Source of the DNA: Arenibacter catalasegens
Lineage (GTDB): Bacteria; Bacteroidota; Bacteroidia; Flavobacteriales; Flavobacteriaceae
DNA length: 64,000 nucleotides
NCBI RefSeq assembly: GCF_002909235.1
Contig: NZ_PHQQ01000032.1
Span: forward strand, 1 to 64,000
Direction: 5' to 3'
Positions 32,087 to 46,274 of the stretch are shown one piece after another. A program made the translations under genes and the position numbers. The notes under the pieces are model-generated. The model saw only the letters and a list, made by a program, of their open reading frames with translations. It ran no database searches and was not told the origin of the DNA. Within the stretch, counting starts at the first letter, position 1; every line of letters starts with the position of its first letter.

Positions 32087-32118
32087 TTTATACGACACTT
32101 AGAGTTCGTTTATACGAC
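32087..32118 (+). promoter_or_regulatory. Candidate resolvase recombination site (direct 10-bp repeats)
   Basis: TTTATACGAC occurs at 32087-32096 and again at 32109-32118, 22 bp (about two helical turns) apart, roughly 100 bp before the serine recombinase gene. This resembles res subsites that lie next to their resolvase gene. Confidence 0.4.
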
Positions 32119-32219
32119 CGTATTATTAAACTTTCATTTTTCTTGGTTAATAACTCCTAGTAAGTTCATTTTTCCGGTATAGTTTTCTAGTTTAATTTTA
32201 GATGTATAATTATACCATT

Positions 32220-32903
32220 ATGTTATTTGGCTACGTAAGGGTAAGTACTAAACCCCAAAATCCTAATTTACAAATTGATGCTCTCTTAAAAGAGGGGGTT
32301 TCTGAGAAAAATATCTATCGGGATGTTTCTTCTGGGGCGAAAGCTGAACGTCATGATTTGGATTTGATGATTTCGAAACTTCGAGAAGGAGATACAGTCA
32401 TTGTTTGGAAGCTGGACCGTATTGCCAGAAGTATTTCACATCTATTGAAATTAGTGGACCAGTTTGAAAAACTTGGTGTAAGATTTAAAAGTATCAATGA
32501 CCCGTTTATTGACACTACTTCTGCCCATGGTAAGTTTATCATTACGCTTTTTGGAGCTGTGGCCCAATTGGAACGTGATATTATTATCGAACGCACAACT
32601 GCCGGTCTTAAAAGTGCCCGGCGCAGAGGAATACAACTTGGTCGTAAAAAAGGAATAGGAAAAGAAGCTAAACAAAAGGCTATGTTAGCATCTTCTTACT
32701 ACAAAGAAAATAAATTGCCTATTACAGACATTATGAAATTAGTAGGGATAAAGTCAAAACCTACTCTATATAAATATTTGGCAATCCAAGGAAGAAGAAA
32801 TTGCAAAGAATGTAAAGTTATCTTTTGGGATGAGACCCAAGATTTAGAGAATGCATTTTGTCAGAAACATCTTGAACCTAAAAATAATTTTGTTGGAAAA
32901 TAG
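32220..32903 (+). CDS. Serine recombinase (resolvase/invertase family)
   Basis: Site-specific recombinase of the small serine family. The N-terminal catalytic domain has FGYVRVSTKPQNPNLQIDAL with the nucleophile Ser in VST, then RIARSISHLLKLV and VAQLERDIIIERT. A HTH-like C-terminal region follows (TDIMKLVGIKSKPTLYKYLA) and a Cys-containing tail (CKECKVIFWDE). I chose ATG 32220 because family members start MxxGYxRVS; an upstream in-frame ATG at 32202 adds six residues. It precedes the cassette-like genes and may have rearranged that area. Confidence 0.9.
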   Translation: MLFGYVRVSTKPQNPNLQIDALLKEGVSEKNIYRDVSSGAKAERHDLDLMISKLREGDTVIVWKLDRIARSISHLLKLVDQFEKLGVRFKSINDPFIDTTSAHGKFIITLFGAVAQLERDIIIERTTAGLKSARRRGIQLGRKKGIGKEAKQKAMLASSYYKENKLPITDIMKLVGIKSKPTLYKYLAIQGRRNCKECKVIFWDETQDLENAFCQKHLEPKNNFVGK

Positions 32904-34875
32904 AAAGCCTAAATACCAAGCCGTAATTGAAAGCATTTACTACATATTTGTTGTTGTTGTTTTATTCTTTAGTTTTGCTGATGGGTTGAGTAGTTCTATT
33001 GATTTTATAAACTTACCCATAGCAATTTGGGGTACTGTTGTTATAATTATTTTGTTCTTATTCCTCTTTTATTTCCCTAAATTCAAATGGAAAACAAGTG
33101 AGGGAACAATTATTACCGTCACTAAATTTCAAAAGACACCTTATCTTTTTCTTGCTGCTTGCGTCATTGGATTATGGATTCCTATTGGCATTAATAATAT
33201 TAATCAAAAAAAGACTACCAACCTTAATTTGACTAAAATTGAATTCAATCCCATTTTCCAAGATAACGATACGACCTCTTTTAATGTGTTAATATTAGAT
33301 TTTGAAGATTTTAGAAAAAAACAGACCAATTGTATAGGAAGATCAATTCAGGAAAATCTAAATAACATATCAGCAAATAGTGATTTAAGTCTTTTCCTTA
33401 ATAATCAATATGTTGACAGTATAAAAAACCCTAGAAGTAGGAAAGATGCGGAAAAAATTCAAAAAAATCATAATGCAGATTTAATAATTTATGGTTTAGC
33501 CAAAGACGTGACGAATGATTGTACAGGTGCTGAGCTTGTATTTAGATATAACATTTCGGACAATGTGATTTCTAAGTTAGGGTCTGTAATAAGCGCCAGA
33601 TCATATAAACATGATTCGAACTATGGCTATGCCAATACCCTTGAAATTGAACAAGACTCACTTAAAATTAATTCGATAACCTTGAAAAAATGGGTGAAAG
33701 CGTTGGTAAATGTTAAAGCTGAAAATCCAAATATGGCATTTTTAGAGTTAGATGAAATTTTAAAAAATTCTGAGAACTATATTCAGCTTAAAAGTGACAC
33801 CCTAAAAGGGGACAAATATATAGTAATTGCTGAAAAGAAAAATAAATCAAACCGATTCATCGCTATTGGACAAACTTATTTTGATTTAATGCAATATGAA
33901 AAGGCATTAATAGTCTATGACTCCGCTATTTCTTTGTTTCCTTATGAAAAAGCATTTTATCAAAATCGAGGAGCGATTTATAGTGAATTAGGGGAATATA
34001 ATAGGAGCTTAAAAGATTTTGACAAATACATTTCCTTGAGTCCTACAGAAGCACATGGTTACTATAACAAAGGAAACACAAATCGTCTTATAAAGCAGTA
34101 CTTAGAGGCCATAAACAATTTTAATCAAGCTATTTTATTGAACCCAAATGATATTGCTTTCTACGAATATAGGGGCATTGCATTTAACGCAATTGGGGAA
34201 TATAACAATGCAATAGACGATTTCAACACTATTATTTCTCTAAACCCTAACTTTTCTGGAGCGTATGATGGTCGAGGGTCATCATATTACTCATTGCGAC
34301 AGTATGAAAGAAGTATTGAAGATTTTAAAAAAGCAATTGAATTAAATCCAAATTCAACCAGCGCAATAAATAACTTAGGTGCGACCTATGGTTATTTAAA
34401 AAAATTCGTCGAGGCAATTAGAATTTTTGATAAATCAATAGCTTTAGATTCGACTTATGCGAGTTCCTATTATAACAGAGCGATAGTATATAGCGAATTG
34501 ACTAAATATCGAAAGGCAATTGAAGATTACAATAAGGCAATTGCATTTGAACCAAGCGATTCATATGCATATAATAATAGAGGCTACTGTCTTTTAAAGT
34601 TAAATAAGCCATCAGAAGCTATTCTTGACATCAATAAATCGCTTTCGCTAGACAAGAATAATAGCTGGGCATATAGAAATTTAGCGTGCTACAATATTCT
34701 AAAATCACAAAATGATTTGGCCCTTAAAAATCTTGAAAAAGCAATATCCCTGGGATATGATGATTTTAATTGGATGAATACAGAAGAAATTTTAAATCCT
34801 ATTCGTCTTAAACCAGAATTTCAGAATTTATTAAAATTAGTATCCGAAAGTAAATTAAGTTCAAATAGAGGTTGA
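32851..34875 (+). CDS. Membrane protein with TolB-like domain and C-terminal TPR array
   Basis: 674 residues. Three hydrophobic helices near the N-terminus (~24-45, 55-74, 95-112) are followed by a segment resembling a TolB/adenylate-cyclase-associated N-terminal domain (FNVLILDFEDF, DAEKIQKNHNADLIIYG). About nine tetratricopeptide repeats follow (~330-640) with the pattern AYYNRGxxYxxLxxYxxAIxDFxxAIxLxP. It overlaps the recombinase gene by 53 nt if ATG 32851 is used; a TTG about 40 nt later is an alternative. The TPRs imply protein binding. Adjacent to a trypsin-like protease gene, so the pair could form a sensing-cleavage unit; this is inference. Confidence 0.75.
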   Translation: MHFVRNILNLKIILLENRKPKYQAVIESIYYIFVVVVLFFSFADGLSSSIDFINLPIAIWGTVVIIILFLFLFYFPKFKWKTSEGTIITVTKFQKTPYLFLAACVIGLWIPIGINNINQKKTTNLNLTKIEFNPIFQDNDTTSFNVLILDFEDFRKKQTNCIGRSIQENLNNISANSDLSLFLNNQYVDSIKNPRSRKDAEKIQKNHNADLIIYGLAKDVTNDCTGAELVFRYNISDNVISKLGSVISARSYKHDSNYGYANTLEIEQDSLKINSITLKKWVKALVNVKAENPNMAFLELDEILKNSENYIQLKSDTLKGDKYIVIAEKKNKSNRFIAIGQTYFDLMQYEKALIVYDSAISLFPYEKAFYQNRGAIYSELGEYNRSLKDFDKYISLSPTEAHGYYNKGNTNRLIKQYLEAINNFNQAILLNPNDIAFYEYRGIAFNAIGEYNNAIDDFNTIISLNPNFSGAYDGRGSSYYSLRQYERSIEDFKKAIELNPNSTSAINNLGATYGYLKKFVEAIRIFDKSIALDSTYASSYYNRAIVYSELTKYRKAIEDYNKAIAFEPSDSYAYNNRGYCLLKLNKPSEAILDINKSLSLDKNNSWAYRNLACYNILKSQNDLALKNLEKAISLGYDDFNWMNTEEILNPIRLKPEFQNLLKLVSESKLSSNRG

Positions 34876-34902
34876 AAAAACACACTATATCGAAATTTTT
34901 AC

Positions 34903-34918
34903 AAGTTTAAATAAAGTA
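34903..34918 (+). repeat. Cassette-border motif, copy 1 (variant)
   Basis: AAGTTTAAATAAAGTA, a variant of the AAAGTTCAAATAAAGGAT motif, lies 5 bp before the ATG of the protease-like gene and 28 bp after the TPR gene stop. Confidence 0.5.
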
Positions 34919-34922
34919 GAAT

Positions 34923-35669
34923 ATGTCATCCGAATCAATAGAAGAGTTCTGTTTCCCGGTAATTGGTTATCATCTTGCAAATAGTAAGGCTATTGCTGAT
35001 AATTTATTTGGCACAGCCTCTTACATCAATAATAACATCTTTATAACAGCAGCGCACAGTATTCTCAATGCACATGAATCAGAAATTATGGGTATAGCCA
35101 TTCGAAATAGTTTTCAAACTAAAAGTGGATATACCTATCACCGCTTCGAAGAGTTTGAACTTTTTGAAGATTTAGATATCGGAATTCTTAAGTTGAAAGG
35201 GAGCAATAAAATTGCTAAGGCTAAAAAATGGTCTTTAAAAAATCCCATAATATTGGAAGACGTTTACTCCTATGGCTTTCCATTTGGATTAAATGCATTA
35301 GAGAAAGAATTAATTGTAAGAGGACTTAAGGGTTATGTTGTTACTTCAAGAAAGTTTCATGAATTCAAAAAGACACCTAGAATCCATGAATTATCGTTTC
35401 ATTGTCCAAAAGGGATATCAGGTGCGAGTCTTCATAATTCAAGGACACATTACATTCAAGGATTTATAATTGGGAACGCTTCAACAGAAATGATGATCTT
35501 CGAAGAAAAGGAAGTTGATGAAAAAGAAAATAAAATATCAGTCTTTCAGAAATATGAAACGACAAAATATGGTATTGCAATTTTAGTTGACAACTTATTG
35601 GACCTACACTCCGAAATTTTAGGAAAAACTTTTAGAGATTATTTGAATGGTGAAAATTTGCTTGTTTAA
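34923..35669 (+). CDS. Trypsin-like serine protease domain protein
   Basis: 248-residue soluble protein with the order of a chymotrypsin-fold protease: catalytic His in IFITAAHSIL (~residue 44), candidate Asp in FEDLDIGILKL (~83) and candidate Ser in CPKGISGASLHN (~166). The Ser motif is G-x-S-G-A-S rather than GDSGGP, so activity is probable but not certain. No signal peptide, so it is predicted to act in the cytoplasm. It follows the TPR membrane protein gene and shares orientation. Cytoplasmic trypsin-like domains are common in bacterial conflict systems. Confidence 0.65.
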   Translation: MSSESIEEFCFPVIGYHLANSKAIADNLFGTASYINNNIFITAAHSILNAHESEIMGIAIRNSFQTKSGYTYHRFEEFELFEDLDIGILKLKGSNKIAKAKKWSLKNPIILEDVYSYGFPFGLNALEKELIVRGLKGYVVTSRKFHEFKKTPRIHELSFHCPKGISGASLHNSRTHYIQGFIIGNASTEMMIFEEKEVDEKENKISVFQKYETTKYGIAILVDNLLDLHSEILGKTFRDYLNGENLLV

Positions 35670-35723
35670 TATAACGAAGATTAGGGTCAATTTACAATTA
35701 TGCTAGCCATTCAATTAGATTTA

Positions 35724-35741
35724 AAAGTTTAAATAAAGGAT
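35724..35741 (+). repeat. Cassette-border motif, copy 2
   Basis: AAAGTTTAAATAAAGGAT, immediately abutting the ATG of the following small gene. It differs from the main form at one base. Confidence 0.7.
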
Positions 35742-35951
35742 ATGTTAGAAGATGGTTTTAGGTCGCATAGATATAGCGATATATTGGGCAACTTAAGTGA
35801 GAATGGTTTTCTGACCGCTGAGGATGTTGGCAAGCTGCTAAAAGAATTTACAACCACCCAAAAAATTACTTTTGATTGCATAAGCGATGAAAAGGCCCAA
35901 ATCGTGTCGGAAGCATTAATTGATAACTATCAACGATCAAAGTCTAATTAA
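35742..35951 (+). CDS. Small hypothetical protein (69 residues)
   Basis: Begins MLEDGFRSHRYSDILGNL, mainly helical and acidic, no signal peptide or membrane segment. SENGFLTAEDVGKLLKEF resembles a short helix-loop-helix. Its ATG follows directly after the repeated AAAGTT(T)AAATAAAGGAT motif. I do not recognise a family. It may be a partner of the preceding protease gene or an independent cassette. Confidence 0.45.
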   Translation: MLEDGFRSHRYSDILGNLSENGFLTAEDVGKLLKEFTTTQKITFDCISDEKAQIVSEALIDNYQRSKSN

Positions 35952-35980
35952 ACGATTGGATTCATACGAGCTCAGATGAT

Positions 35981-36589
35981 GTGCGCAAGTCTAAAAAAAT
36001 AGAGAGATAAATGAAACTTCTAATTGCTCTTGCCCTATTTTTGTTCACTTTTTCGGTAACGGGGCAAAATTTTGATACTGAATTTAAGTATACTGATTCC
36101 ATTAATAAAGGCATCTCGATACAGAATAGTTATCCAAAAGGTGGAGATATATACACAGATCCTAATGGTAAAGAATATGTTTTTGCCGTATTTTGGACTT
36201 GTATAACTAATGAGACTGAATCTGACATGGAAATAACTATAAATTTTCCAATTGATTCATTCACGGTTCATTCTTCACCGGACGTAAATTTTAATTTTTA
36301 TCTACCAAAGGAAAAAATGACCATTGAAAAAGATCACTTGTTCGGTTACGGATTAGATTTAAAATCATTTTTAGATAAAAACATAGATAAACCGTCTGAA
36401 TTGCAAGTTACAATTAGTCCGAAAGACTCCTATTCTTTTTATGTAGTTGCACTTTCCAATAGAGGAGTTAATGGCGTGGTACGGGCGGGATTTGAACTAC
36501 AAAAACAAGAACTACTTTATAAAATTAATAACTATGAAATTAATTCTGGTCGAATTATAACAAAAAAATAGTGAGGAGGCTTGCGCACA
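35981..36589. repeat. 10-bp inverted repeats flanking one gene
   Basis: TGTGCGCAAG at 35981-35990 and its exact reverse complement CTTGCGCACA at 36580-36589 bracket the secreted-protein gene. A related TGTGCGTAAAACAAGC lies at 36711, making the 36577-36726 interval an imperfect palindrome that also holds a CTATGG/CCATAG hairpin at about 36598-36613. Confidence 0.55.
36011..36571 (+). CDS. Secreted protein of unknown function
   Basis: 186 residues with a clear signal peptide (LLIALALFLFTFSVTGQ). The mature part is beta-rich (FAVFWTCITNETESDMEITINFPIDSF), suggesting an immunoglobulin-like or jelly-roll fold, but I know no family. It stands alone between two halves of a 10-bp inverted repeat, as in a gene cassette. 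Confidence 0.6.
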   Translation: MKLLIALALFLFTFSVTGQNFDTEFKYTDSINKGISIQNSYPKGGDIYTDPNGKEYVFAVFWTCITNETESDMEITINFPIDSFTVHSSPDVNFNFYLPKEKMTIEKDHLFGYGLDLKSFLDKNIDKPSELQVTISPKDSYSFYVVALSNRGVNGVVRAGFELQKQELLYKINNYEINSGRIITKK

Positions 36590-36624
36590 ACAGTATCCTA
36601 TGGAAAGCCATAGTCCAGTTCTCT

Positions 36625-36642
36625 AAAGTTCAAATAAAGGAT
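36625..36642 (+). repeat. Cassette-border motif, copy 3
   Basis: AAAGTTCAAATAAAGGAT, main form, 90 bp before the methyltransferase ATG. The first ATG after it opens a frame of only five codons. Confidence 0.75.
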
Positions 36643-36731
36643 TAAAATATGCTTTGGGTATCGTAGATGCAAAGCATTCAGTTGTTCGCTTTCCAGAATA
36701 TTAAGGAGATTGTGCGTAAAACAAGCTCAAT

Positions 36732-37319
36732 ATGGTCGATTCCAATATACAAAACAAACCCCAAATCCTTTCTCAAATTCAATCTAAGTCCCTAGAAATA
36801 GGTTTCACTATGCCATCTGATGAATTGGTAGGGGCGCTGCTTAAAACACTGGTAGGTTCTAAACCCAATGCAAACATTCTGGAATTGGGTACAGGTGTTG
36901 GCCTATCATTATCATGGATGGCTGATGGAATGTGTGAGAACTCGTTCCTTACAACAATTGACAATGATCCTGACCTACAAGAAATTGCTAAAGGTTTTTT
37001 TGGCGACGATTCTAGGATTGCTATCATTTGCGAAGATGGTAGCAAATGGATCAAAAATTACAAGGGAGAAAAATTTGATTTGGTTTTTGCGGATGCATGG
37101 CCAGGGAAGTACAGTGATTTGGATGAAATTTTGGATTTAATAAAGCCCGGGGGATTTTATATAATTGATGATATGACTAGACAACCCAACTGGCCTGATG
37201 GACATGATGAGTTTGCCAATCAATTAACCACCAAATTGGAGACTCGAAATGATTTTAATATGACCAAACTGAATTGGTCAACAGGAATAATAGTTATGAC
37301 TAAGAAGTTGAACAACTAG
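36732..37319 (+). CDS. SAM-dependent O-methyltransferase-like protein
   Basis: 195-residue class I methyltransferase. Motif I ILELGTGVGLSLSWMA binds S-adenosylmethionine, LTTIDNDPDLQEIAKGFF carries the acidic end of beta2, and KFDLVFADAWPGKY with KPGGFYIIDDM gives motifs IV-V. The layout resembles catechol-O-methyltransferase-type enzymes (FAD-AWPGKY). Substrate unknown. It stands alone, with a terminator after the stop. Confidence 0.8.
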   Translation: MVDSNIQNKPQILSQIQSKSLEIGFTMPSDELVGALLKTLVGSKPNANILELGTGVGLSLSWMADGMCENSFLTTIDNDPDLQEIAKGFFGDDSRIAIICEDGSKWIKNYKGEKFDLVFADAWPGKYSDLDEILDLIKPGGFYIIDDMTRQPNWPDGHDEFANQLTTKLETRNDFNMTKLNWSTGIIVMTKKLNN

Positions 37320-37366
37320 AAGTTCAATAAATCTATAGTTTGAACCTTACTTAATTTTAATTATTA

Positions 37367-37397
37367 TGTCCAAATATATCTTATTTGGACATTTTTT
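37367..37397 (+). terminator. Terminator after methyltransferase gene
   Basis: A perfect 10-bp stem (TGTCCAAATA with TATTTGGACA) with a 5-nt loop followed by TTTTTTA, 48 bp beyond the stop codon and just before the parDE promoter. Confidence 0.8.
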
Positions 37398-37425
37398 ATT
37401 AATTTAGTTGTAAATTATTTCAGAT

Positions 37426-37650
37426 ATGAATGTTAGTTTCACTAAAAAACAGGAAGAATACATAAACGAGCAAGTTGCTTCAGGCGAGTATCAGAATAAT
37501 AGCGAAGTGATACGAGATGCCTTAAGGTTGCATGGTATTTATAGAGAAAAGGTTATTCAGGATCTAAGGAAGGAAATTGAAAAAGGATGGGATGGCCCAG
37601 ACAGTAATTTGTCAATGAGCCAAATAATAGCATCCAAGAAGAGTTCATGA
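37426..37650 (+). CDS. parD: ParD-like antitoxin
   Basis: 74-residue type II antitoxin of the ParD/CopG family. The N-terminal ribbon-helix-helix is MNVSFTKKQEEYINEQVASGEYQNNSEVIRDALRL, and the C-terminal part is the toxin-wrapping helix. It binds its own promoter with ParE. The gene overlaps the toxin gene by four bases (ATGA), a standard coupling. Confidence 0.9.
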   Translation: MNVSFTKKQEEYINEQVASGEYQNNSEVIRDALRLHGIYREKVIQDLRKEIEKGWDGPDSNLSMSQIIASKKSS

Positions 37651-37943
37651 AATACCCATATTTTCTTTCTGAAGAAACTAAAGCCGATATAGATGAAATC
37701 TATGAATTCGGTGAAGGTAAGTTCGGACAGGACCAAGCCATCAAATATTTAATAGGACTTGAAGAGCACTTTGATAAGTTGAGTGCTAATTATCATATAG
37801 GTCGGACACGGAATGACATCAAAAAAGGTTTATATAGTCTGCCTTATATTTCACATATTATCTTTTACCGAATTTTAAAAGACAGAATAAGAATTGTCAG
37901 AGTTTTATATGGAGGAAGAGATCTTATTAAATTTCTAGACTAA
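37647..37943 (+). CDS. parE: ParE-like toxin (RelE/ParE superfamily)
   Basis: 98 residues: the opening YFLSEETKADIDEIYEFGEGKFG, the central HFDKLSANYHIGRTRNDIKKGLYSLPYISHIIFYRI and the C-terminal DRIRIVRVLYGGRD match ParE toxins that poison DNA gyrase. Paired with the upstream antitoxin, it probably stabilises the mobile element by post-segregational killing. The gene is followed at once by the repeated cassette-border motif. Confidence 0.9.
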   Translation: MKYPYFLSEETKADIDEIYEFGEGKFGQDQAIKYLIGLEEHFDKLSANYHIGRTRNDIKKGLYSLPYISHIIFYRILKDRIRIVRVLYGGRDLIKFLD

Positions 37944-37959
37944 AGTTCAAATAAAGGAT
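37942..37959 (+). repeat. Cassette-border motif, copy 4
   Basis: AAAGTTCAAATAAAGGAT, main form, overlapping the last two bases of the parE stop codon. It is not followed by a gene start; the next ATG reads three codons only. Confidence 0.75.
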
Positions 37960-38135
37960 TGAATACTGAATATTCCAGGTATGAACTGAGAATAAAAACA
38001 GCAATTTATAAATTGGGCCTATTATTAACCACTACTTGCACTGGACAATCTGTTGACAACTTTATTAGTACTTAGTCAATTTTCATTTTTTTGATCCCTT
38101 TTTTCGAATATTTTTATGGCTTACCAAACCACCCC

Positions 38136-38351
38136 ATGACCGACAATATTAGGCGTTTATTCGAGCAAATGGATGTCCCTACCAGGGAAGTAGCATTGGC
38201 CTGCCTTAAGAAAGAGTTCAATGTCAAACACGGGAAATTGGTCAAGAACGAATGGATTATAGGTGGTAGAATTCCCGAAGCCTTCCAAGAAAGAACCGTG
38301 AAATTGTTTCAGAACCTAATAATGAAACAGGCAACTCCAATAGATAGATAA
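38136..38351 (+). CDS. Small hypothetical protein
   Basis: About 71 residues from the ATG at 38136 (MTDNIRRLFEQMDVPTRE). A TTG 45 nt upstream in frame is a less likely start. It is helical and basic with no membrane segment. KNEWIIGGRIPEAFQERT is distinctive, but I do not recognise the family. A terminator follows 33 bp after the stop. It may be the tail of a longer gene interrupted by the nearby group II intron sequence. Confidence 0.45.
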   Translation: MTDNIRRLFEQMDVPTREVALACLKKEFNVKHGKLVKNEWIIGGRIPEAFQERTVKLFQNLIMKQATPIDR

Positions 38352-38384
38352 ATTTCTATAAAGGGTACGAAAACCTAATATCAA

Positions 38385-38413
38385 CTCTGGATTAAACCAG
38401 AGACTTTATTTTT
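38385..38413 (+). terminator. Terminator before the group II intron remnant
   Basis: A 6-bp stem (CTCTGG with CCAGAG), 6-nt loop and trailing ACTTTATTTTT. Confidence 0.55.
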
Positions 38414-38559
38414 CAAATCGAAAGCCATTATCGACACATTGTTTTTGCTACTAATAGAGTTCTACAACAATAAATTATATCTTTTTCGAAAAACCATCCT
38501 CACTCCATTCTTCACTATCTACACCATGATGAACGCAAGAGCCGTCGATGGCTCAACAC

Positions 38560-38730
38560 GTTGTAAAAAATGCAACCCAGTTTGTTTGCCCATTGAAGTG
38601 TATGCCCATGCGACAAATTGCCAACATGATCTTGAAGAGCCGTATGAATCGAGAGGTTCACGTACGGTTCTGTGAGGAGGTTGAGTTGAAACTCCCCTTG
38701 CTTACTCGAATGGCAACAGTTCTTTAAAGG
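38560..38730 (+). ncRNA. Group II intron 3' remnant (domain V at 38637-38670)
   Basis: The 34-nt hairpin GAGCCGTATGAATCGAGAG ... ACGTACGGTTC is a textbook domain V: an AGC-containing stem base, a tetraloop-capped upper stem and a two-base bulge. A domain VI-like stem (GGAGGTTGAG region) follows to about 38710. No reverse transcriptase/maturase gene lies upstream, and the 5' intron domains are not evident, so this is a truncated intron that cannot splice or move by itself. The exact 5' limit is uncertain. Confidence 0.75.
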
Positions 38731-38797
38731 CCACCGTTTTCACTATTATAATAAAATTCTTTATGGAGTTAAGAAATTATTAATCCATTTAGTACAC

Positions 38798-40186
38798 TTA
38801 TAAATCTGGTTTTGGTATAATATTTAGATTAAGTTTAAAGAAGTTATTAGGGTCATATTTATATTTAACATCTTGCAGGCGCGAATAATTTGAACCAAAT
38901 GAAGCAATTATTTTATCGCTATCATCATTATCAAGGTAATTACTATATGCACCACCAGAAGCAAAAGGTGTCATTTTATTATAAAATTCACGAGTCCAAT
39001 TGATATTTTTTTCGTCATTCTCAGCCTCCATCCAACCTGACCATACCCCTAAAACATAAGAGGCGCTTCTTTGAGGGAATGCTGTAGCACTTTCTTCTAC
39101 CCGGGTGATCGCACCTCCAAACGGTTCAAATCCAACAACGGAAAGTTCTCCTGGGATATGATTGGTGTTATTAACAAAAACATCTATTGCTTCGTCTGAA
39201 AGATGATCTATATAATGTGCTTTCCAGTAATATCGCATTCCTTTAGGAGCACCCTTATCAAAACTTGTTTGCAGTGCTATATAGGACATGGGCATTATTA
39301 CCCGAAGAATTGGATTTCCAAAATTTTCAAGGGGTTCCAGAGCCGTTTTACCATCATCCAAACTACCTGCATAGCTTACCACAAGTGCGATTGCAATTTT
39401 TCCTTGAAGTGCCTCAGGGAACGGATCTGCGGGCGGAACTTTTACAACTAAAGCATAACCTGCAAGTTCTTCTGCGGCACTTGATGTGAACTCACTATAA
39501 AACTTAAGCACCTGTTTAGCATCTTCAATAGGATAAAATATCTGTGCAGTCATAATTTCCGGACCTAATTCATGTAGTTTGAACTCAAAAGATGTAACCA
39601 CTCCAAAATTTCCTCCACCGCCGCGAAGTGCCCAAAATAGATCTGAATTTTCGGTTTCATTTGCAGATATTAAATCACCTTTAGCAGTAATTATTTCTAC
39701 GGATAATAAATTATCAATAGTAAGGCCATGTTTACGCCCTAAATAGCCAATGCCTCCTCCCAAAGTCAGACCTGCTATTCCCGTTTTTGACACAATACCC
39801 ACAGGGGTAGCCAAACCGAATTTTTGAGTTTCCTTATCTAGCTCACCAAGTGTAGCTCCCGATTCAACTCTGACTGTTCTTTTAACCGGATCAACAGCAA
39901 CAGCATTCATTTGCGAAAGATTAATCATCAAGCCGTCATCGCAAACTGCCTTTCCTGCAACATTATGTCCCCCACCCTTGATAGAGACCAATAAATCATG
40001 GCTTTGAGCAAAATTCACGCACTTTTTTATATCTTCTGCATTTCTGCAATTTGCTATCATTACTGGTCGTTTGTCAACCATTCCATTCCAGACAGAACGG
40101 CCTTCATCATACCCTGGGTCGAAAGGCATAATTAATGGTTGACTTAAGGTTTGCGAAAATTCCTGAATTGTTATTTGATCTAACAT
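38798..40186 (-). CDS. FAD-binding oxidoreductase, berberine bridge enzyme-like
   Basis: 462-residue flavoenzyme. The FAD_binding_4 domain (~30-200) contains VSIKGGGHNVAGKAV, whose His is the usual site of covalent FAD linkage, and GIAGLTLGGGIGYLGRKHGL. The BBE C-terminal motif is YDPNNFFKLNLNI. The position where bicovalent enzymes have Cys reads VGIVSKTG, so only the 8-alpha-His bond is expected. Family members oxidise sugars, alkaloids or aromatic alcohols. It reads leftwards and ends beside the intron remnant. No signal peptide, hence cytoplasmic. Confidence 0.85.
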   Translation of the reverse strand: MLDQITIQEFSQTLSQPLIMPFDPGYDEGRSVWNGMVDKRPVMIANCRNAEDIKKCVNFAQSHDLLVSIKGGGHNVAGKAVCDDGLMINLSQMNAVAVDPVKRTVRVESGATLGELDKETQKFGLATPVGIVSKTGIAGLTLGGGIGYLGRKHGLTIDNLLSVEIITAKGDLISANETENSDLFWALRGGGGNFGVVTSFEFKLHELGPEIMTAQIFYPIEDAKQVLKFYSEFTSSAAEELAGYALVVKVPPADPFPEALQGKIAIALVVSYAGSLDDGKTALEPLENFGNPILRVIMPMSYIALQTSFDKGAPKGMRYYWKAHYIDHLSDEAIDVFVNNTNHIPGELSVVGFEPFGGAITRVEESATAFPQRSASYVLGVWSGWMEAENDEKNINWTREFYNKMTPFASGGAYSNYLDNDDSDKIIASFGSNYSRLQDVKYKYDPNNFFKLNLNIIPKPDL

Positions 40187-40384
40187 GCGTTAAAATTTTA
40201 AATGAATATTTAGATAACTTCCTGTAAGCATGTGGTTCTTAAACTAATCTATATACCTGGCATAATAAATTGTTGCCAACGTCTACGGCTTTGCGTTGGT
40301 GGGATATTTGAAAAACGTCCAGCCCGGACTATCGCTGATTGAAAAACTCTACCCGAACTTAAGCACAAAGCTAAATTACTAACG
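40187..40384. other. Intergenic segment with an attC-like palindrome
   Basis: At about 40274-40300 CCAACG is paired with CGTTGG across 13 bases rich in TACGGC. It resembles interspersed palindromic elements I recall between accessory genes of Bacteroidota. No gene is present. Confidence 0.3.
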
Positions 40385-40612
40385 TCATGCTGAACTACTG
40401 CTGATAGTAATTTTGGAGACGAGGACTCGCACGTCGCCCCCTGCTATTGCAAATACTTTTGTTGTAAGAATCTTGCCTGATTCCTCGTAGTTAAGTTTTA
40501 AACTATTAATGGTTGCGAATTTATCATTTGATGGTATTGCCTCTTGCGCTGTTTTGTTTGATGCAACAAAGATGATGCAGATGAATAAGATGTTCATAAA
40601 TCTCTTATACAT
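40385..40612 (-). pseudogene. Truncated secreted alpha/beta hydrolase-like gene
   Basis: An open frame starts with a signal-like segment (FMNILFICIIFVASNKTAQ) and continues DKFATINSLKLNYEESG, the beginning of an alpha/beta hydrolase core, but then leaves the family pattern and stops after 75 codons. The oxyanion loop and nucleophile elbow are missing. It is probably an N-terminal remnant, lying next to a complete hydrolase gene of different composition. Confidence 0.5.
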
Positions 40613-40678
40613 CGGTAAAAAATTTTTTACTTTTAAATCCTGTGGCCGTCATTATAATGAATTCCACCAGGCGGTATG

Positions 40679-41512
40679 TCATCCTGCTTGCAATGGGTGT
40701 TTCGAGAAGAAGCTTGCTAATCGTTCGGCAACAGCTTTTGGGTTCGTTTGCAGCATCGCATGAGTTGCATTAGGTACAATGAAATTTTCTGCATTTGGCA
40801 ACCATGTTTGTATCGTCGCGAAAATTTCACGAAAATAGGGCCTGCTATCAGCTCCACTCATATTGATCACCGGCTGAGTGATATGGGTTGCATCCTGCGG
40901 CGTGAACATCCACGGTTGAAGTGCCGATACATCAGACTGAAAGAGCGTATCGGCATCCGCCACCCAGCGTTCAAAGTAGCCTGACGGCAACGTCTGTTCA
41001 AAGTCTGCACGGTAATCAGCACCGGCTACCTCCTGGCCGAAGCCGTCTATTGCGCCCACCTTATTACCCGACTCATACAGGGATCCTGCTTTTGCAGCCC
41101 CCGCACCGAACTCGGGAGAGTTAAAGAGCACTGATGGCAAGGCGGGCTCCAACAGGGCAAGTGAATATACGGAGTCTGGGGCATCCAGTGCGAATTGCAA
41201 CAAAATAACACCGCCGTAGGACTGACCTACCACGTGCGCCCTTTCAATTCCCAAATGTTTCAAAACCGCTTTACAGTCTGCCGCCTGTTGTGAAATACTG
41301 ACTGGGGCTTTGGGGCGTTCACTGTTTCCAAACCCCCGCCGATGATAGTGAATTAGACGATAACGGTTGGTGAGGGCAGGCTCTTCGAGCATCGCAAAGC
41401 ATTCATCTCCCATACCACCATGTACAAACATGACGGGTTCTCCCGATCCAATATCCAGGATTTCCAGTTCCACACCATTGATTTCGGTAAGTTGCATTTT
41501 AGGTAAAATCAT
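40679..41512 (-). CDS. Alpha/beta hydrolase
   Basis: 277-residue soluble hydrolase. The oxyanion region is VMFVHGGMGDE, the nucleophile elbow is VVGQSYGGVILLQFAL (Ser ~105), and the catalytic His lies in VPNATHAMLQTNP (~251); a candidate Asp sits in NMSGADSRPYF. The start may be ATG 41512 or, 15 nt later, 41497 (MQLTEINGVELEIL). The gene is clearly richer in G+C than its neighbours (CCG, GCG and CGC codons), pointing to recent acquisition from another lineage. Substrate unknown. Confidence 0.85.
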   Translation of the reverse strand: MILPKMQLTEINGVELEILDIGSGEPVMFVHGGMGDECFAMLEEPALTNRYRLIHYHRRGFGNSERPKAPVSISQQAADCKAVLKHLGIERAHVVGQSYGGVILLQFALDAPDSVYSLALLEPALPSVLFNSPEFGAGAAKAGSLYESGNKVGAIDGFGQEVAGADYRADFEQTLPSGYFERWVADADTLFQSDVSALQPWMFTPQDATHITQPVINMSGADSRPYFREIFATIQTWLPNAENFIVPNATHAMLQTNPKAVAERLASFFSKHPLQAG

Positions 41513-42299
41513 GATTTCTATTATTAGATGGGTGAGAAAAAATTCTGCTTCATAGCAAACTTTTTAAGCACTGCAATTAAGAAGGTCTTTGTTCGGTTTG
41601 CTTACAACATATGAATGTCGTCATTGATCATATATTCTTTGTATAATTAATGTATCAAACACTCGATTTCCAAAAAAAAAAGATGTGTCTGCTAAATAGA
41701 GGTCAACTTCAGTTCAATTGGAATTGTAAATAAATATTATTCAATTTCTTAACAAGAATTAATAACAAATTATAACACTTCCGAATGTCGTAACCCTTTC
41801 CCCAATAATACGTGCTTTTGAGAGGAAACACTTATTATATATTCTCACATTGCCAAAGACAACTGTGCTTATTATCCCTTTAAAATTCAGTGCTTAAACA
41901 ACTGCAAGAGAATGAGGGAATTATTTATATTCCCCTTTAAGAGGAATTAAAACGGGGGGGATATTTTTTATGCTTGAAAAATATCTTAGGTCTTAAAACC
42001 CAAGCAACAAAATGTAGAATTAATTGTTGTAATCTAAAAGTAAGACTATTTTTTAAACCTTTTATAAAAATTAGGATTATTTTTTGTTGAACGTAAATAA
42101 CAGCATCCACTATTAAGCAGAAAATACCATTAACCAAACTCACCTTCCATATATTGCAATGGCCGTGTGATTTCAACCCTGCTGGAATGCTCTTTATGGC
42201 TATAGACATCTTTGTTAACAGGGTAAGTGATTAGGTGTTCATCTGGCATTACCCCTTAATAACATTTTCGATATCTTCGTTCAAGTTATTAGGCATTTT
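41513..42299. other. 787-bp gene-free stretch
   Basis: AT-rich sequence with only short frames. One on the minus strand at 41937-42209 is hydrophobic but has no family features or clean start context. I see no RNA gene. This could be decayed cargo. Confidence 0.45.
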
Positions 42300-42316
42300 A
42301 AAGTCCAAATAAAAAT
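42300..42316 (+). repeat. Cassette-border motif, divergent copy
   Basis: AAAGTCCAAATAAAAAT, a degraded form of the 18-bp motif, 24 bp before the immunity pseudogene. Confidence 0.4.
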
Positions 42317-42340
42317 TCAAATTTTAATAATTTAAGGTAA

Positions 42341-42637
42341 ATGGAAATTTTAGATTGGATACAGAAATGGTTTAAGGATAATTGTGATGGGGAATGGGAA
42401 CATGGCACAGGTATCCAAATAACCACTCTAGACAATTCAGGGTGGGATGTAGAAATTGACATTTCGTAAACTTCTATAGCAAATACTAATATAAATTGGA
42501 TTCTTAACGAAAATGGAAAACAAGATTGGTATGGTGTGAAAATTGAGAATCAAAAATTTAATACTGCAGTTGATTCCGGAAAACTAAAATTTCTATTAGG
42601 CTTATTTAAAGAGATGATAGAGAAACTCGAAAATTAA
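42341..42637 (+). pseudogene. Imm53-like immunity protein gene with internal stop
   Basis: A single frame of 98 codons encodes MEILDWIQKWFKDNCDGEWE, then ITTLDNSGWDVEIDIS, a TAA stop at codon 43 (42467-42469), then SIANTNINWILNENGKQDWY and KLKFLLGLFKEMIEKLEN. The first half matches Imm53 immunity proteins, which protect against polymorphic toxins (W-x-x-x-x-C-D-G-E-W-E-H, LDNPGW). The stop probably replaced a Glu codon (GAA to TAA). Reading frame and similarity continue past it, so the gene is recently inactivated. No cognate toxin lies nearby. Confidence 0.7.
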
Positions 42638-42668
42638 TACAATTGTTAACAAAGAACTGTGCTTCACC

Positions 42669-42686
42669 AAAGTTCAAACAAAGGAT
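42669..42686 (+). repeat. Cassette-border motif, copy 6
   Basis: AAAGTTCAAACAAAGGAT, one base from the main form, 31 bp after the immunity pseudogene. It is the last copy before the mobilization region. Confidence 0.7.
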
Positions 42687-43092: not shown

Positions 43093-43113
43093 TTGCCTAA
43101 AAGGTCAAAGAAA

Positions 43114-43500
43114 ATGGAACAACGGAAAAGAGGCCGAAAACGATTGGGAAAAAGTAAGCGGTACCATAACATAATGCTCCGGTTCAACGATATGGAATAT
43201 GAGAGACTCAAGACAATTGCCGGAACCTACAACCTGGACATTTCGCAGCGGGGCGTGATAAGCCCCCTTCTGAGAAGGTTGGTATTGGACAGGGAATCGG
43301 AGGAAAAGGAACGGCTGCCGAACACCTTGGACATAGCCCACCTTATCAACAGGATAGGCAGCAACATCAACCAGTTGGTAAAACTGGCACACTTCAAGAA
43401 CCAGAGAAGTCCCAACAGTAGTTTGGTAGACGAGATACAAAGGACCAATGAACTTATGGATGTACTTATCGAAATCACAAAAGAAGAACAATTGGGATGA
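43114..43500 (+). CDS. mobC: MobC-like mobilization accessory protein
   Basis: Relaxosome accessory protein that helps the relaxase at oriT. About 129 residues from ATG 43114 (MEQRKRGRKRLGKSKRYHNI); a TTG at 43093 in frame would add seven. A basic N-terminus is followed by a ribbon-helix-helix-like segment (IMLRFNDMEYERLKTIAGTYNLDI) and the MobC motif IAHLINRIGSNINQLVKLAH. The stop overlaps the relaxase start (ATGA), so the two are translationally coupled. Confidence 0.85.
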   Translation: MEQRKRGRKRLGKSKRYHNIMLRFNDMEYERLKTIAGTYNLDISQRGVISPLLRRLVLDRESEEKERLPNTLDIAHLINRIGSNINQLVKLAHFKNQRSPNSSLVDEIQRTNELMDVLIEITKEEQLG

Positions 43501-45797
43501 TAGGAAGGATAGGATATGGGGAAAGCTGTCAGGGAATGCTGAACTATGTCTTCGGCAAGGAAGGTATGCGCATACTCGGTTATGGGAATATGTACTCACA
43601 GTACATATCACATAAATTCTTCGGTAGCGTACTCCATTTCCAGGGGCAACGTAATGCCACCAAGAACCGCTATGTCCATATTACCCTAAACCTTCCCCTA
43701 GGGGAACACCTGGATGACAATACCTTCCAAGCAGTATCAAGGGAATATATGGAGCAAATGGGCTACGGGGAACAGCCCTATGTAATGGTAAGGCACACCG
43801 ATACCGGCCATGAGCATGTCCATATAATTACGACCAATGTGGACAATGATGGAAAGGTCCTCGGAATCTTCAACAGCTACCGAAGGAATGTGGCGACCCA
43901 GCAATACCTTGAAAAAAAGTTCGGCCTATCGCCATCGCCACGGATAAAACAGCAGAGGGAACTCCCCGTCTACAGGTCGCCAGAACTACAGTTCGGCACG
44001 GACCCTGCCCAAGGGACGAAGTTCTATTTGCAGGACGTACTGAACGGCATCCTGCAGAAACACAAAGTGAGGAGTTTCGGGGAACTGGCAAAACTCGTAA
44101 AACCCTATCACATACAGGTAAGGCAAACAAAAAACATATCGGGGAGGATAGGGGTGGCCTATGGCCTGGACAATCAAAAGGGCTATAGGACCCGGTTCAT
44201 CAACGGCTCCACCGTGCACCGAAGCTTGAGCGGCCCCAAACTACAAAAAAATTTCGAGGCCAATTCAAAATCGAAGCTACTTCCGATGCACCGCAAGCGT
44301 TTGATGAAACAAATAGAAACTACCTATGGTCTTTTCAAGTCCATCTGTCCACACGAACTACCAGAAGTACTCAAGGAATATCAGGATATCGACATCAAAC
44401 TGGACAGAAAAGGGGATGCCATCAAGGGATATAGCATCTATGACAGATCTGGATATGTATTCACGGAAAGGGAGCTGGGGCAATACATCAGGATGGAGAA
44501 ACGACCCAAAATTTTCGGAAATGGAATCGAAAATACCGAAATTGATACCGACAGCAAACAGTTCGGAATAGAGATCCAAAAACTGATAAAGGAGGCATTC
44601 CAAACAACCTATCTTAAATCCCCAAAACGGGAGGGACTGCTCTCGGAAAGTATTATGACCAAAAATCTAATGGATATCCTTCCGTTTATTATAGACTCAA
44701 AAATCCACATATTCTTTGAACGCTATCTACCAGGGGCTCAAAAAAAATTGCTGCCGGAAATACTTAAACGAGAGTTCCCAACGGTAAGGGATAGATTGTT
44801 CCAATTGGAGACCAAGAAGGAAATAGAAACCTTGAAAGGTAAGTTCAACCTTATCGGCAAGGTATTGGAAAAGGGCATTTTCGATGTTGGGATGGAAAAG
44901 GGAAGCGTCCGGCTTTTATTCCAAGCTTTGGGTGTAAAGTATCACGATAACCAGTTGTCTTTTGCCAATTCGAACAGGCATAAGGTCCCCGTTCGTTTGG
45001 GCGAACTGCCCTTTTCCAAGGCCATGGAGGAATATGTGTCCGCTGGATTTGTACGTCAAAATCATTCGGTGCTGGAACTATTAACGGCACAGAATTCCAA
45101 TAACAGCACTAAGCTGACGGCATCTGCCATTTTTCTTCCCATGGTATTTCCGAAACTTTATCAAACAATGGCACCGATGTATAGGCAACGGTACGAGAGT
45201 GCGGCATTGGGTTCTTACCTAAAATATGCCGAACGCATGCACGCACCCTATGAAAAATCACCGAAAGACTATATCGCTTTTTTCAACGCCAAAGGGTTCT
45301 GTTTTACCAGAACGGAAAATGATTTCGAAGTCAAATCCATTTATACGGACAACGGAACTAGTTATACGCTGTCTAAAAAGACAGGCCTTTATTTGAACTC
45401 CATTCCCGATATAACTAAACTATTAGAGGAACAATATACCGTCATCGGCGGACTTGTTAAAGATGGTAGAGATAATCTAAAAAACCTATGGGCGGGCCAT
45501 TTAATGGAAAGGGAGATGTACGATAGGGTAGCTTTTATGTTGACGGAGGAAAAGGTTTATCCCAACCTGCATCCAGAGATGGTGCAGCACCATATGGACA
45601 GCGGACTTCGTAAAAGTTTGGACGAAGCAATCAAAAGGCAATCCAGTATCCAACAAAACCGTTTGATCAGAAAAGGTGTTTATGCCATCAGTTCATTATT
45701 GGGCAATCGGGGCAAAGGACAAGAAGAGGTCTATAACGGGTTCAAGGATGAAATGACTGATTATTCTAAGAAAAAGGGTAGGGGACTTTCGTTTTAG
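43497..45797 (+). CDS. mobB: Relaxase (PF03432-type mobilization nuclease)
   Basis: 766-residue DNA relaxase that nicks oriT and pilots the strand. The N-terminal domain (~1-200) has GYGESCQGMLNYVFGK with the candidate nucleophile Tyr and YVMVRHTDTGHEHVHII, the three-His metal-binding motif. The long C-terminal part (~250-766) has no recognised domain; its length exceeds most 300-450 residue Bacteroidota MobB proteins. No coupling protein or T4SS genes follow. The symbol follows Bacteroidota usage and is tentative. Confidence 0.9.
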   Translation: MIGRIGYGESCQGMLNYVFGKEGMRILGYGNMYSQYISHKFFGSVLHFQGQRNATKNRYVHITLNLPLGEHLDDNTFQAVSREYMEQMGYGEQPYVMVRHTDTGHEHVHIITTNVDNDGKVLGIFNSYRRNVATQQYLEKKFGLSPSPRIKQQRELPVYRSPELQFGTDPAQGTKFYLQDVLNGILQKHKVRSFGELAKLVKPYHIQVRQTKNISGRIGVAYGLDNQKGYRTRFINGSTVHRSLSGPKLQKNFEANSKSKLLPMHRKRLMKQIETTYGLFKSICPHELPEVLKEYQDIDIKLDRKGDAIKGYSIYDRSGYVFTERELGQYIRMEKRPKIFGNGIENTEIDTDSKQFGIEIQKLIKEAFQTTYLKSPKREGLLSESIMTKNLMDILPFIIDSKIHIFFERYLPGAQKKLLPEILKREFPTVRDRLFQLETKKEIETLKGKFNLIGKVLEKGIFDVGMEKGSVRLLFQALGVKYHDNQLSFANSNRHKVPVRLGELPFSKAMEEYVSAGFVRQNHSVLELLTAQNSNNSTKLTASAIFLPMVFPKLYQTMAPMYRQRYESAALGSYLKYAERMHAPYEKSPKDYIAFFNAKGFCFTRTENDFEVKSIYTDNGTSYTLSKKTGLYLNSIPDITKLLEEQYTVIGGLVKDGRDNLKNLWAGHLMEREMYDRVAFMLTEEKVYPNLHPEMVQHHMDSGLRKSLDEAIKRQSSIQQNRLIRKGVYAISSLLGNRGKGQEEVYNGFKDEMTDYSKKKGRGLSF

Positions 45798-46006
45798 AAC
45801 TCAAAAAAGTGATTTAGTAATTGGATTTAGCACTCTATGGGGTACTTTTTTATGGATAGGGAGTAAAAAGAAAGTTAAAACCTTGCTAAGGTAAAGTATG
45901 ATATAGTGTTTCACTAAATGAAAATAGAAACCTAGTCTATGAATTTTAGCCCGAGACAGCTAATAACAATTAGAATGAAGGAACAAAAAGGCAAAGGAAA
46001 AATACG
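45798..46006. other. Gene-free right end of the element
   Basis: AT-rich sequence after the relaxase gene with no frame of note. It leads into the terminal repeat at 46007. Confidence 0.5.
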
Positions 46007-46031
46007 ATTTGTTGTACCTATGTTGTACCAA
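46007..46031 (+). promoter_or_regulatory. Right copy of 25-bp terminal repeat
   Basis: Identical to 23694-23718 and in the same orientation; the preceding AAAAATACGA also occurs near the left copy at about 23673. It lies 50 bp inside attR. It probably binds the integrase or an excision factor. Confidence 0.6.
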
Positions 46032-46046
46032 GTACTTTTTTTCGAA

Positions 46047-46073
46047 TGAAAAAGCCGAGGCAAAACCTCGGCT
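46047..46073 (-). terminator. Element-borne terminator for tRNA-Leu
   Basis: Read leftwards, an 8-bp perfect stem (AGCCGAGG with CCTCGGCT) and a CAAAA loop are followed by TTTTT. It lies 11 bp beyond the tRNA-Leu 3' end and replaces the ancestral terminator stranded at 23499-23525. Confidence 0.75.
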
Positions 46074-46080
46074 ATCTCCC

Positions 46081-46141
46081 TTGTACTCGAGGCGGGACTT
46101 GAACCCGCACGGACTAATGTCCATTGGATTTTAAGTCCAAC
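46081..46141. repeat. attR: 61-bp tRNA-Leu 3' repeat
   Basis: Exact partner of 23536-23596, here forming the 3' part of the intact tRNA-Leu gene. The repeat ends within the anticodon stem, one base past the shared CCAAC, after which host sequence (the tRNA 5' part) begins. Confidence 0.95.
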
Positions 46142-46167
46142 GTGTCTACCAATTCCACCACTCGAGC
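46084..46167 (-). tRNA. tRNA-Leu (anticodon UAA)
   Basis: Read leftwards, GCTCGAG pairs with CTCGAGT (one G-U) to form the acceptor stem, with discriminator A. The anticodon loop CTTAAAA between TTGGA and TCCAA gives UAA. The long variable arm makes it a class II tRNA, and the T-loop is TTCAAGT. CCA is not encoded. Its 3' part was supplied by the integrated element. Confidence 0.95.
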
Positions 46168-46201
46168 CTAGCTGCTCTGTGCAGTAGCATTTTTACAATG
46201 G

Positions 46202-46274
46202 AGCGAAAAACGGGATTCGAACCCGCGACCTCCACCTTGGCAAGGTGGCGCTCTACCAACTGAGCTATTTTCGC
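46202..46274 (-). tRNA. tRNA-Gly (anticodon GCC)
   Basis: A 73-nt gene read leftwards: acceptor GCGAAAA with TTTTCGC, D-arm GCTC...GAGC, anticodon stem CCACC with GGTGG around TTGCCAA (anticodon GCC), T-arm with TTCGAAT and discriminator T. CCA is not encoded. It lies 34 bp upstream of tRNA-Leu, so the two are probably one transcript. Confidence 0.95.

Follow-up and report, generated by a model that had tools for sequence, protein, structure and literature searches.

Integrons are the textbook means of collecting and reshuffling single genes, and depend on one family of tyrosine recombinases and a folded DNA site. Short recombination sites also bound genes in the Xer (pdif) modules of Acinetobacter plasmids, where the sites are ~28 bp long and are served by the host XerC/XerD, and DNA invertases and resolvases use a short inverted-repeat site with a 2-bp centre and act on two or few fixed sites. 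Features described for integrons are a single recombinase gene, an entry region, cassettes that stand in tandem with one polarity and each have a site at the 3' end, recombinase-less (CALIN-like) arrays and many genes of unknown function (PMC8618304). In Bacteroidales, a recombinase lies upstream of co-oriented short genes with conserved motifs between them in the rAID systems, which have a predicted tyrosine recombinase and orphan T6SS immunity genes (PMC12247911). Here we analyse a stretch of 64,000 nucleotides of Arenibacter catalasegens (contig NZ_PHQQ01000032.1, positions 1 to 64,000; henceforth referred to as 'the window'), in which a small serine recombinase gene is followed by unrelated genes separated by copies of an 18-bp repeat. 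We conclude, with a probability of about 0.85, that the locus is a platform for gene cassettes that relies on a small serine recombinase of the resolvase/invertase superfamily.

Tandem arrays of cassettes bounded by an 18-bp site

An earlier note on this DNA, made by a model from the sequence alone, had proposed that copies of an 18-mer at 34903, 35724, 36625, 37942, 42300 and 42669 bound an array of cassettes joined by recombination at a short site, in a system that it did not recognise, and our analysis supports that proposal. When up to three mismatches were allowed, six matches were found in the window (at 36625, 37942, 35724, 42669, 34856 and 59292), as compared to 0.35 expected from dinucleotide shuffles, none of 100 of which reached six; the match at 59292 lies inside a gene, outside the array region. 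Two copies are exact (36625 and 37942) and two carry one mismatch (35724 and 42669), all on the + strand, and these four strong copies of the earlier list stand. The other two are weak: scored with a matrix trained on Arenibacter and a few relatives, in which a perfect site reaches 28.3, the copy listed at 34903 (here 34902), which has four mismatches to the word used in that note, scores 12.2, and that at 42300 scores 13.3. Three further copies had been overlooked, of which that at 35939 (AAAGTCTAATTAAACGAT) is good, that at 34856 degenerate and that at 32117-32134 inverted; no link had been made to the serine recombinase gene at 32220-32903, and the inverted repeat with its 2-bp centre had not been seen. 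As claimed, all listed copies share one orientation and two of them abut start codons, with ATG codons adjoining those at 35724 and 34902. That the copies lie between co-directed genes needs one correction, since the genes at 38798-40186 and 40679-41512, both located between 37942 and 42669, are on the opposite strand. The region has eight + strand copies, none deeper than 30 nt inside an open reading frame (ORF) of at least 80 codons, and the ORF of 109 codons, started by TTG, that the copy at 42669 enters by 26 nt looks spurious.

The same site recurs in further arrays. Across the 5.45-Mb genome of A. catalasegens, 23 of the 33 matches at up to two mismatches fall in four arrays (C15, C22, C26, which is that of the window, and C41), with six matches for the reversed word as control. 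At least one match at one mismatch was found in 40 of 149 genomes (this one and its relatives), and at least five matches only in six of 18 Arenibacter genomes (G000, G005, G006, G009, G011 and G016; 0-1 for the reversed pattern). Between sites we counted 324 units of 100-4000 bp, with a median length of 579 bp and 73% of them shorter than 1 kb. The longest ORF of at least 50 codons was on the strand of the site in 190 of 196 units (of 203), and the stop codons of these 190 ORFs lay inside the site in 47 cases and within 100 bp before it in 107. The arrays are tandem mobile cassettes of one polarity, a feature that they share with integrons.

To describe the cargo we took a random pick of 140 proteins from 189 + strand ORFs of at least 60 codons. 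These matched 96 Pfam families, none of which was found in more than four proteins: there were four proteins of the beta-lactamase family, a few with helix-turn-helix, glyoxalase, acetyltransferase or TPR matches, one Abi_2, and single defence-like matches among cassette proteins, such as AbiD and PD-T7-4. Toxin-antitoxin genes (ParDE and YafQ) are present in the Arenibacter arrays. Immunity families were absent from the 25 commonest Pfam matches of the 140 proteins; the window itself has one Imm53 gene.

Association of the site with a small serine recombinase

The recombinase gene of the window (32220-32903, + strand, 227 amino acids from this ATG) is co-oriented with the array and has the features of the small serine recombinase superfamily, namely a Resolvase N-terminal domain (PF00239, E=7.3e-41) and conserved Ser and Arg residues. 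Ser9, Arg7, Arg67 and Arg70, which we take to be catalytic, are invariant in 14 aligned relatives, the alignment (A1) omitting recombinases with in-frame stops (G016 C11, G333a and G033) and partial ones (G067, G054 and G007). NCBIfam models match the recombinase below their cut-offs only. For the relative at C41, the closest solved structures by sequence are the DNA invertases 4m6f and 3uj3, presumably both Gin, and the gamma-delta resolvase (2gm4/1gdt).

A scan of 84,980 species with the alignment of the 14 relatives returned 442 loci, the best 80 of which were kept and searched for sites at a matrix score of at least 18. In these 80 loci, 281 sites were downstream of the recombinase gene on the same strand, as compared to one downstream on the opposite strand, six upstream on the same strand and none upstream on the opposite strand beyond the 130 bp before the gene; the reversed sequence gave two. 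Five of the six upstream sites come from a single locus, L163. The match at this locus covers just the C-terminal part of the recombinase, and no site is present in the 3.2 kb downstream. The counts were repeated without the genomes used to train the matrix, and were 253, 1, 6 and 0 in the same order once the five loci from those genomes were removed, and 230, 1, 6 and 0 in the 70 loci that remained when all ten loci fetched earlier were removed. At least one downstream site was present in 60 of the 71 loci with at least 3 kb downstream (51 of 61 among loci not fetched before). A search with the protein only, in 299 genomes of the family, found 13 loci in ten genomes, ten of them not yet fetched; eight of these ten have at least two downstream same-strand sites, one (G248) has a single site, at 15.5 kb, and one (G033) has none.

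Other serine recombinases served as controls. Beside 12 other PF00239 proteins, several of them large, from 11 of the same genomes, no site reached 18 (best 17.8), the fetched DNA covering 1.6 to 11.3 kb on the downstream side and up to 10.3 kb on the upstream side. Around relatives of the recombinase that are more distant (two loci of G552 and one of G665) there was no site down to a score of 12, and three plasmid loci, of Aureispira (two) and Runella, which are those inspected out of 3825 matching plasmid records, had none at 18 or above. Around a third subgroup of recombinases (G005 C24 and G016 C19) no 12-mer was present three times. The word AGTTTCGTTAATTAACCTTTTACGG(A/C)ACT, with up to five changes (L033 4970; L072 13008; L074 10635; L077 7750, - strand; L208 9247; L209 9601; L097 6828, - strand), stands just before the start codon in this third subgroup without arrays and also within ~160 bp to the left of four array recombinase genes. 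In a tree of the recombinases, the two main groups have 26 array-bearing rows out of 31 and 28 out of 36, with L155 and L157 in addition outside them; all outsiders tested (G552, L198, G665, G005 C24 and G016 C19) fell outside both groups, the root not being fixed. One tree row (G000C45_ctl, end branch ~10) is probably a wrong-frame translation and was ignored, and other long branches are unsure. A recombinase match at E 1e-60 was found in only three of 395 sampled genomes of the phylum, that of A. catalasegens included. On this limited sample, the arrays seem to be confined to one recombinase subfamily.

The form of the site was derived from loci not fetched before; here, and in the counts of gene interiors and of upstream sites below, we omitted the ten of 80 loci fetched earlier, five of which are from matrix-training genomes. 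The consensus, AAAGTTYA-AA-TAAASGAT, is an 18-bp imperfect inverted repeat around a 2-bp centre, the arms of which, read outward, agree at five of eight positions and partially at a sixth. Information is limited to these 18 columns, neighbouring ones holding at most ~0.2 bit (227 sites), and the centre is AA in 192 and AT in 29 of 230 sites. Crossover sites of serine recombinases have this form; the enzymes make a 2-bp staggered cut, and the sequence of the stagger sets the orientation. No hairpin of the attC type was seen, folding beside sites being no stronger than elsewhere in cassettes: with DNA parameters, the mean folding energy of 120 windows of 120 nt ending at sites was -7.3 (shuffled -6.2) and that of 120 random cassette windows -8.05 (shuffled -7.2). 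Sites more than 45 nt inside ORFs of at least 100 codons numbered eight of 229, as compared to 527 of 820 random positions in the same arrays.

Cassette exchange and its explanations

Comparison between arrays demonstrates that cassettes are exchanged whole, with breaks at the site. The 215-bp cassette of the window aligns over 213-215 bp, at 89-99% identity, in six other loci (of G000, G005, G009 and G016), although its right-hand site is below the threshold in two of the six. Of the 324 cassettes, 62 belong to 25 families with more than one member. Families F10-F15 are found only in near-identical arrays of G006 and G011 and F22 only within one array; the remaining shared families are spread over different arrays, be it of one genus or of several (Arenibacter together with Flagellimonas, Allomuricauda or Maribacter), in most cases beside different neighbours, and two of them (F23 and F24) stand in reversed order in L179 and L181. 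In 24 cassette pairs from 11 of the 25 families, identity inside the cassette was 71-100%, while the 100-bp flanks gave 0.40-0.59, save for one pair sharing the next cassette (0.95), as compared to 0.37-0.63 (mean 0.48, n=59) for random flank pairs aligned in the same way. [Muricauda] yonaguniensis and Flagellimonas amoyensis share one 720-bp cassette at full identity (1.00 rounded), and its flanks in the two are no more similar than random pairs. Of 2210 high-scoring segment pairs (HSPs) between loci, 84 lie inside the arrays of both; 116 of the 168 ends of these HSPs have a site within 20 bp in each of the two sequences, as compared to none of 168 random positions. At single junctions, G003 and G017 match at 98.6% identity through 4.5 kb as far as a site and are unrelated just beyond it, and the right side following a site is common to G017, G016 C11 and G011 C23, which have three different left sides. 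The earlier note had named two patterns that would speak against an array, the motif lying equally often inside genes and a gene order conserved across copies; the scarcity of sites in gene interiors contradicts the first, and the differing neighbours, swapped order and breaks of homology at the motif contradict the second. An empty chromosomal site for the G016 C11 unit was not found, its right flank being present in other genomes and its left flank only in stretches of ~60-165 bp. The same seven-cassette array, at least 99% identical, is present in two species (G006 C11 and G011 C12), with no match to the serine recombinase in the fetched stretch.

How might this exchange occur? A cassette is typically a single ORF, in some cases a toxin-antitoxin pair, and has one 18-bp site at its 3' end; the cassettes stand in a co-oriented row behind the recombinase gene. 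A dimer of this recombinase, as the presumed catalyst, would attach to the two 8-bp arms, cleave both strands at the 2-bp centre and swap half-sites between two copies of the site. Recombination between two direct copies would delete the intervening cassette as a circle with one site, recombination between such a circle and an array site would insert it, and the asymmetry of the AA centre would ensure that all cassettes face the same way; expression of the inserted gene is likewise presumed. The entry point is likely to be the site just after the recombinase gene, which is present in some loci: in four closely related loci of 18, identity is 90-98% over the 63 bases that separate the stop codon from the first site and 22-29% beyond this site. 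The inverted sites that precede the gene, which mostly have an AT centre, probably serve for binding or control. Such a site stands ~90 bp ahead of the start codon in 52 of 70 loci, and another immediately ahead of it in 25 of 70. Around the former, identity over 398 locus pairs was 70% to the right, 88% within the site, 35% in the 57 bases to the left and 29% further left (60 of 80 loci had a recognisable site there, and pairs were picked for at least 60% identity on the right), and conservation thus seems not to extend further left than this site. Of the two proposed reactions, deletion of cassettes is the safer. The action of natural resolvases and invertases is mostly confined to a single molecule, and small serine recombinases rarely join separate molecules; for this reason capture from outside is the least certain step.

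Further observations weigh against a cassette platform run by this recombinase. Eleven of the 71 recombinase loci have no site at 18 or above in the fetched stretch (L128, L132, L135, L162, L163, L185, L189, L190, L197, L198, which is a Kiloniella gene, and L199). Arrays also exist without a recombinase match in the fetched stretch (G000 C15, G006 C11, G011 C12, G011 C23, and G005 C6 and C25) or, at G000 C22, with a weak fragment only (E 4e-4). The site at -90 has an AT centre in 36 of 52 loci, and pairing with AA array sites is not expected; 14 of the 18 loci have a gene or other DNA at the position of the entry site. For 52 of the 168 HSP ends, at least one of the two sequences has no site nearby, and many of the HSPs, stemming from related loci, are not independent. 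The sample holds one genome per species, and the evidence consists of sequence comparison.

Some of these points would also suit a scheme in which the sites recombine, with the serine recombinase only excising, resolving or regulating itself, and in which cassettes are spread by homologous recombination together with array-carrying integrative elements, or by a tyrosine recombinase of the host or of an element. Arrays lacking a nearby recombinase fit this scheme, the inverted sites ahead of the recombinase gene are reminiscent of a control region, and the gene after the last site of G016 C11 and G011 C23, a flank shared by G017, is a partial, below-cut-off tyrosine-recombinase match. We nevertheless consider it unlikely. 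Site position and strand are tied to the recombinase in most loci (60 of 71, and 51 of 61 of those not fetched before), and to our knowledge an 18-bp site with a 2-bp centre is not of the Xer or lambda type. Moreover, since the flanks of cassettes that are 71-100% identical are no more alike than random pairs, no homology is left there for a crossover. Very unlikely is that the repeat is an expression signal, such as a ribosome-binding or terminator element, copied along with genes: a purine-rich AAAGGA stretch is part of the word and two copies of the window adjoin start codons, yet 47 of 190 stop codons lie inside the site, which assigns it to the preceding gene, homology between arrays ends at the site, and 23 of the 33 copies in the genome are in four arrays. 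Finally, an ordinary integron or its remnant, with an IntI tyrosine recombinase and folded attC sites, is also very unlikely in spite of the same layout (recombinase, tandem co-oriented small cassettes, toxin-antitoxin pairs and recombinase-less arrays), because TIGR02249 was over its cut-off in none of 12 genomes, the associated enzyme is PF00239, tyrosine recombinases below the cut-off match there and in all 14 control genomes alike, and no notable conserved positions or extra folding extend beyond the 18 bp. Those sub-cut-off tyrosine recombinases reach up to ~129 bits (partial) against the integron-integrase model, with 10 to 42 partial matches per genome. A ribosome-binding signal, an integron attC and plain repeat noise were all rejected on the evidence given against these explanations.

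The window locus and known systems

In the window, the inverted site AAAGTTTAATAATACGGT lies at 32117-32134 on the - strand, 86 bp before the start of the recombinase gene; in related loci the conserved unit seems to extend no further left than this site. The features listed next, up to 42686, are on the + strand. Between the recombinase gene and the first sites lies a gene for a TPR-repeat protein (32851-34875), followed by two degenerate sites, TAAGTTCAAATAGAGGTT at 34856-34873 (score 15.2) and CAAGTTTAAATAAAGTAG at 34902-34919 (score 12.2), the latter just 5' of the ATG of the next gene. This gene, the first cassette-like unit, encodes a trypsin-like protease (34923-35669; PF13365, E=2.6e-6) and is followed by the junction site AAAGTTTAAATAAAGGAT at 35724-35741. 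The 215-bp cassette (35733-35947) has an ORF at 35742-35951 without a Pfam family at E 0.01 and ends in the junction site AAAGTCTAATTAAACGAT at 35939-35956; next is a single-gene cassette (36011-36571) without a Pfam or NCBIfam match at E 0.01, and then a site with the exact consensus (36625-36642). An O-methyltransferase gene (36732-37319; PF01596, E=5e-12) and a ParD-ParE toxin-antitoxin pair (37426-37943; PF03693 and PF05016) precede the second exact site (37942-37959), which the parE stop codon overlaps. Positions 37951-38361 are the first 411 bp of a 508-511 bp cassette known in G005, G006 and G011 (87-88% identity over query 1-411). Homology to these relatives is lost at ~38361, where other DNA follows, so the cassette has probably been interrupted by an insertion. 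The 3' end of a group II intron is found inside the array (38635-38711; RF00029, 64.7 bits). Further on are a degenerate site, AAAGTCCAAATAAAAATT (42300-42317, score 13.3), an Imm53 immunity gene with an in-frame stop (42341-42637; PF15580, E=8e-16 and 1.8e-8 for pieces searched apart) and, just after it, the last junction site, AAAGTTCAAACAAAGGAT (42669-42686). After the array, at 43093-46274, are genes for a mobilisation protein and a relaxase, then tRNA-Leu and tRNA-Gly; the array may thus be at the end of a mobilisable element.

Overall, the locus probably represents a second, independently evolved integron-like machine for gene capture, based on a small serine recombinase and double-stranded 18-bp sites, found in many marine genera of Flavobacteriaceae and with a large pool of mostly uncharacterised cassettes that includes defence and toxin-antitoxin genes. 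If so, the cassette-array strategy arose more than once, and the system would open a new way to study how genes flow among marine Bacteroidota and could provide a compact, orientation-controlled assembly tool. We found no description of cassette arrays with a serine recombinase in the literature searched, an absence that is weak because coverage of subscription papers and preprints was thin. What is new is the enzyme and the site; the idea of a cassette array is already known.

With integrons (intI, attI and attC, mobile or sedentary chromosomal) the locus shares the layout features given in PMC8618304, with the site just after the recombinase gene, seen in four of 18 loci, as a candidate for the entry region. 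In marked contrast to integrons, the recombinase is a serine and not a tyrosine recombinase, the site is 18 bp with a 2-bp centre instead of a folded attC, and the recombinase gene is co-oriented with the array. Since two defining features of integrons, an IntI over the cut-off and a folded attC, were not found, we regard the locus as a new system that works like an integron and not as an integron. The layout is also shared with rAID, and both occur in Bacteroidota; however, rAID has a predicted tyrosine recombinase (PMC12247911), so the present locus, with its serine recombinase, mixed cargo and no orphan-immunity pattern, is not rAID. The Xer (pdif) modules likewise have short sites bounding genes, but are without a dedicated serine recombinase. 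DNA invertases (Gin and Hin) and the Tn3/gamma-delta resolvases belong to the same protein family as the recombinase described here, which differs from them in being accompanied by many direct sites in arrays of changing genes.

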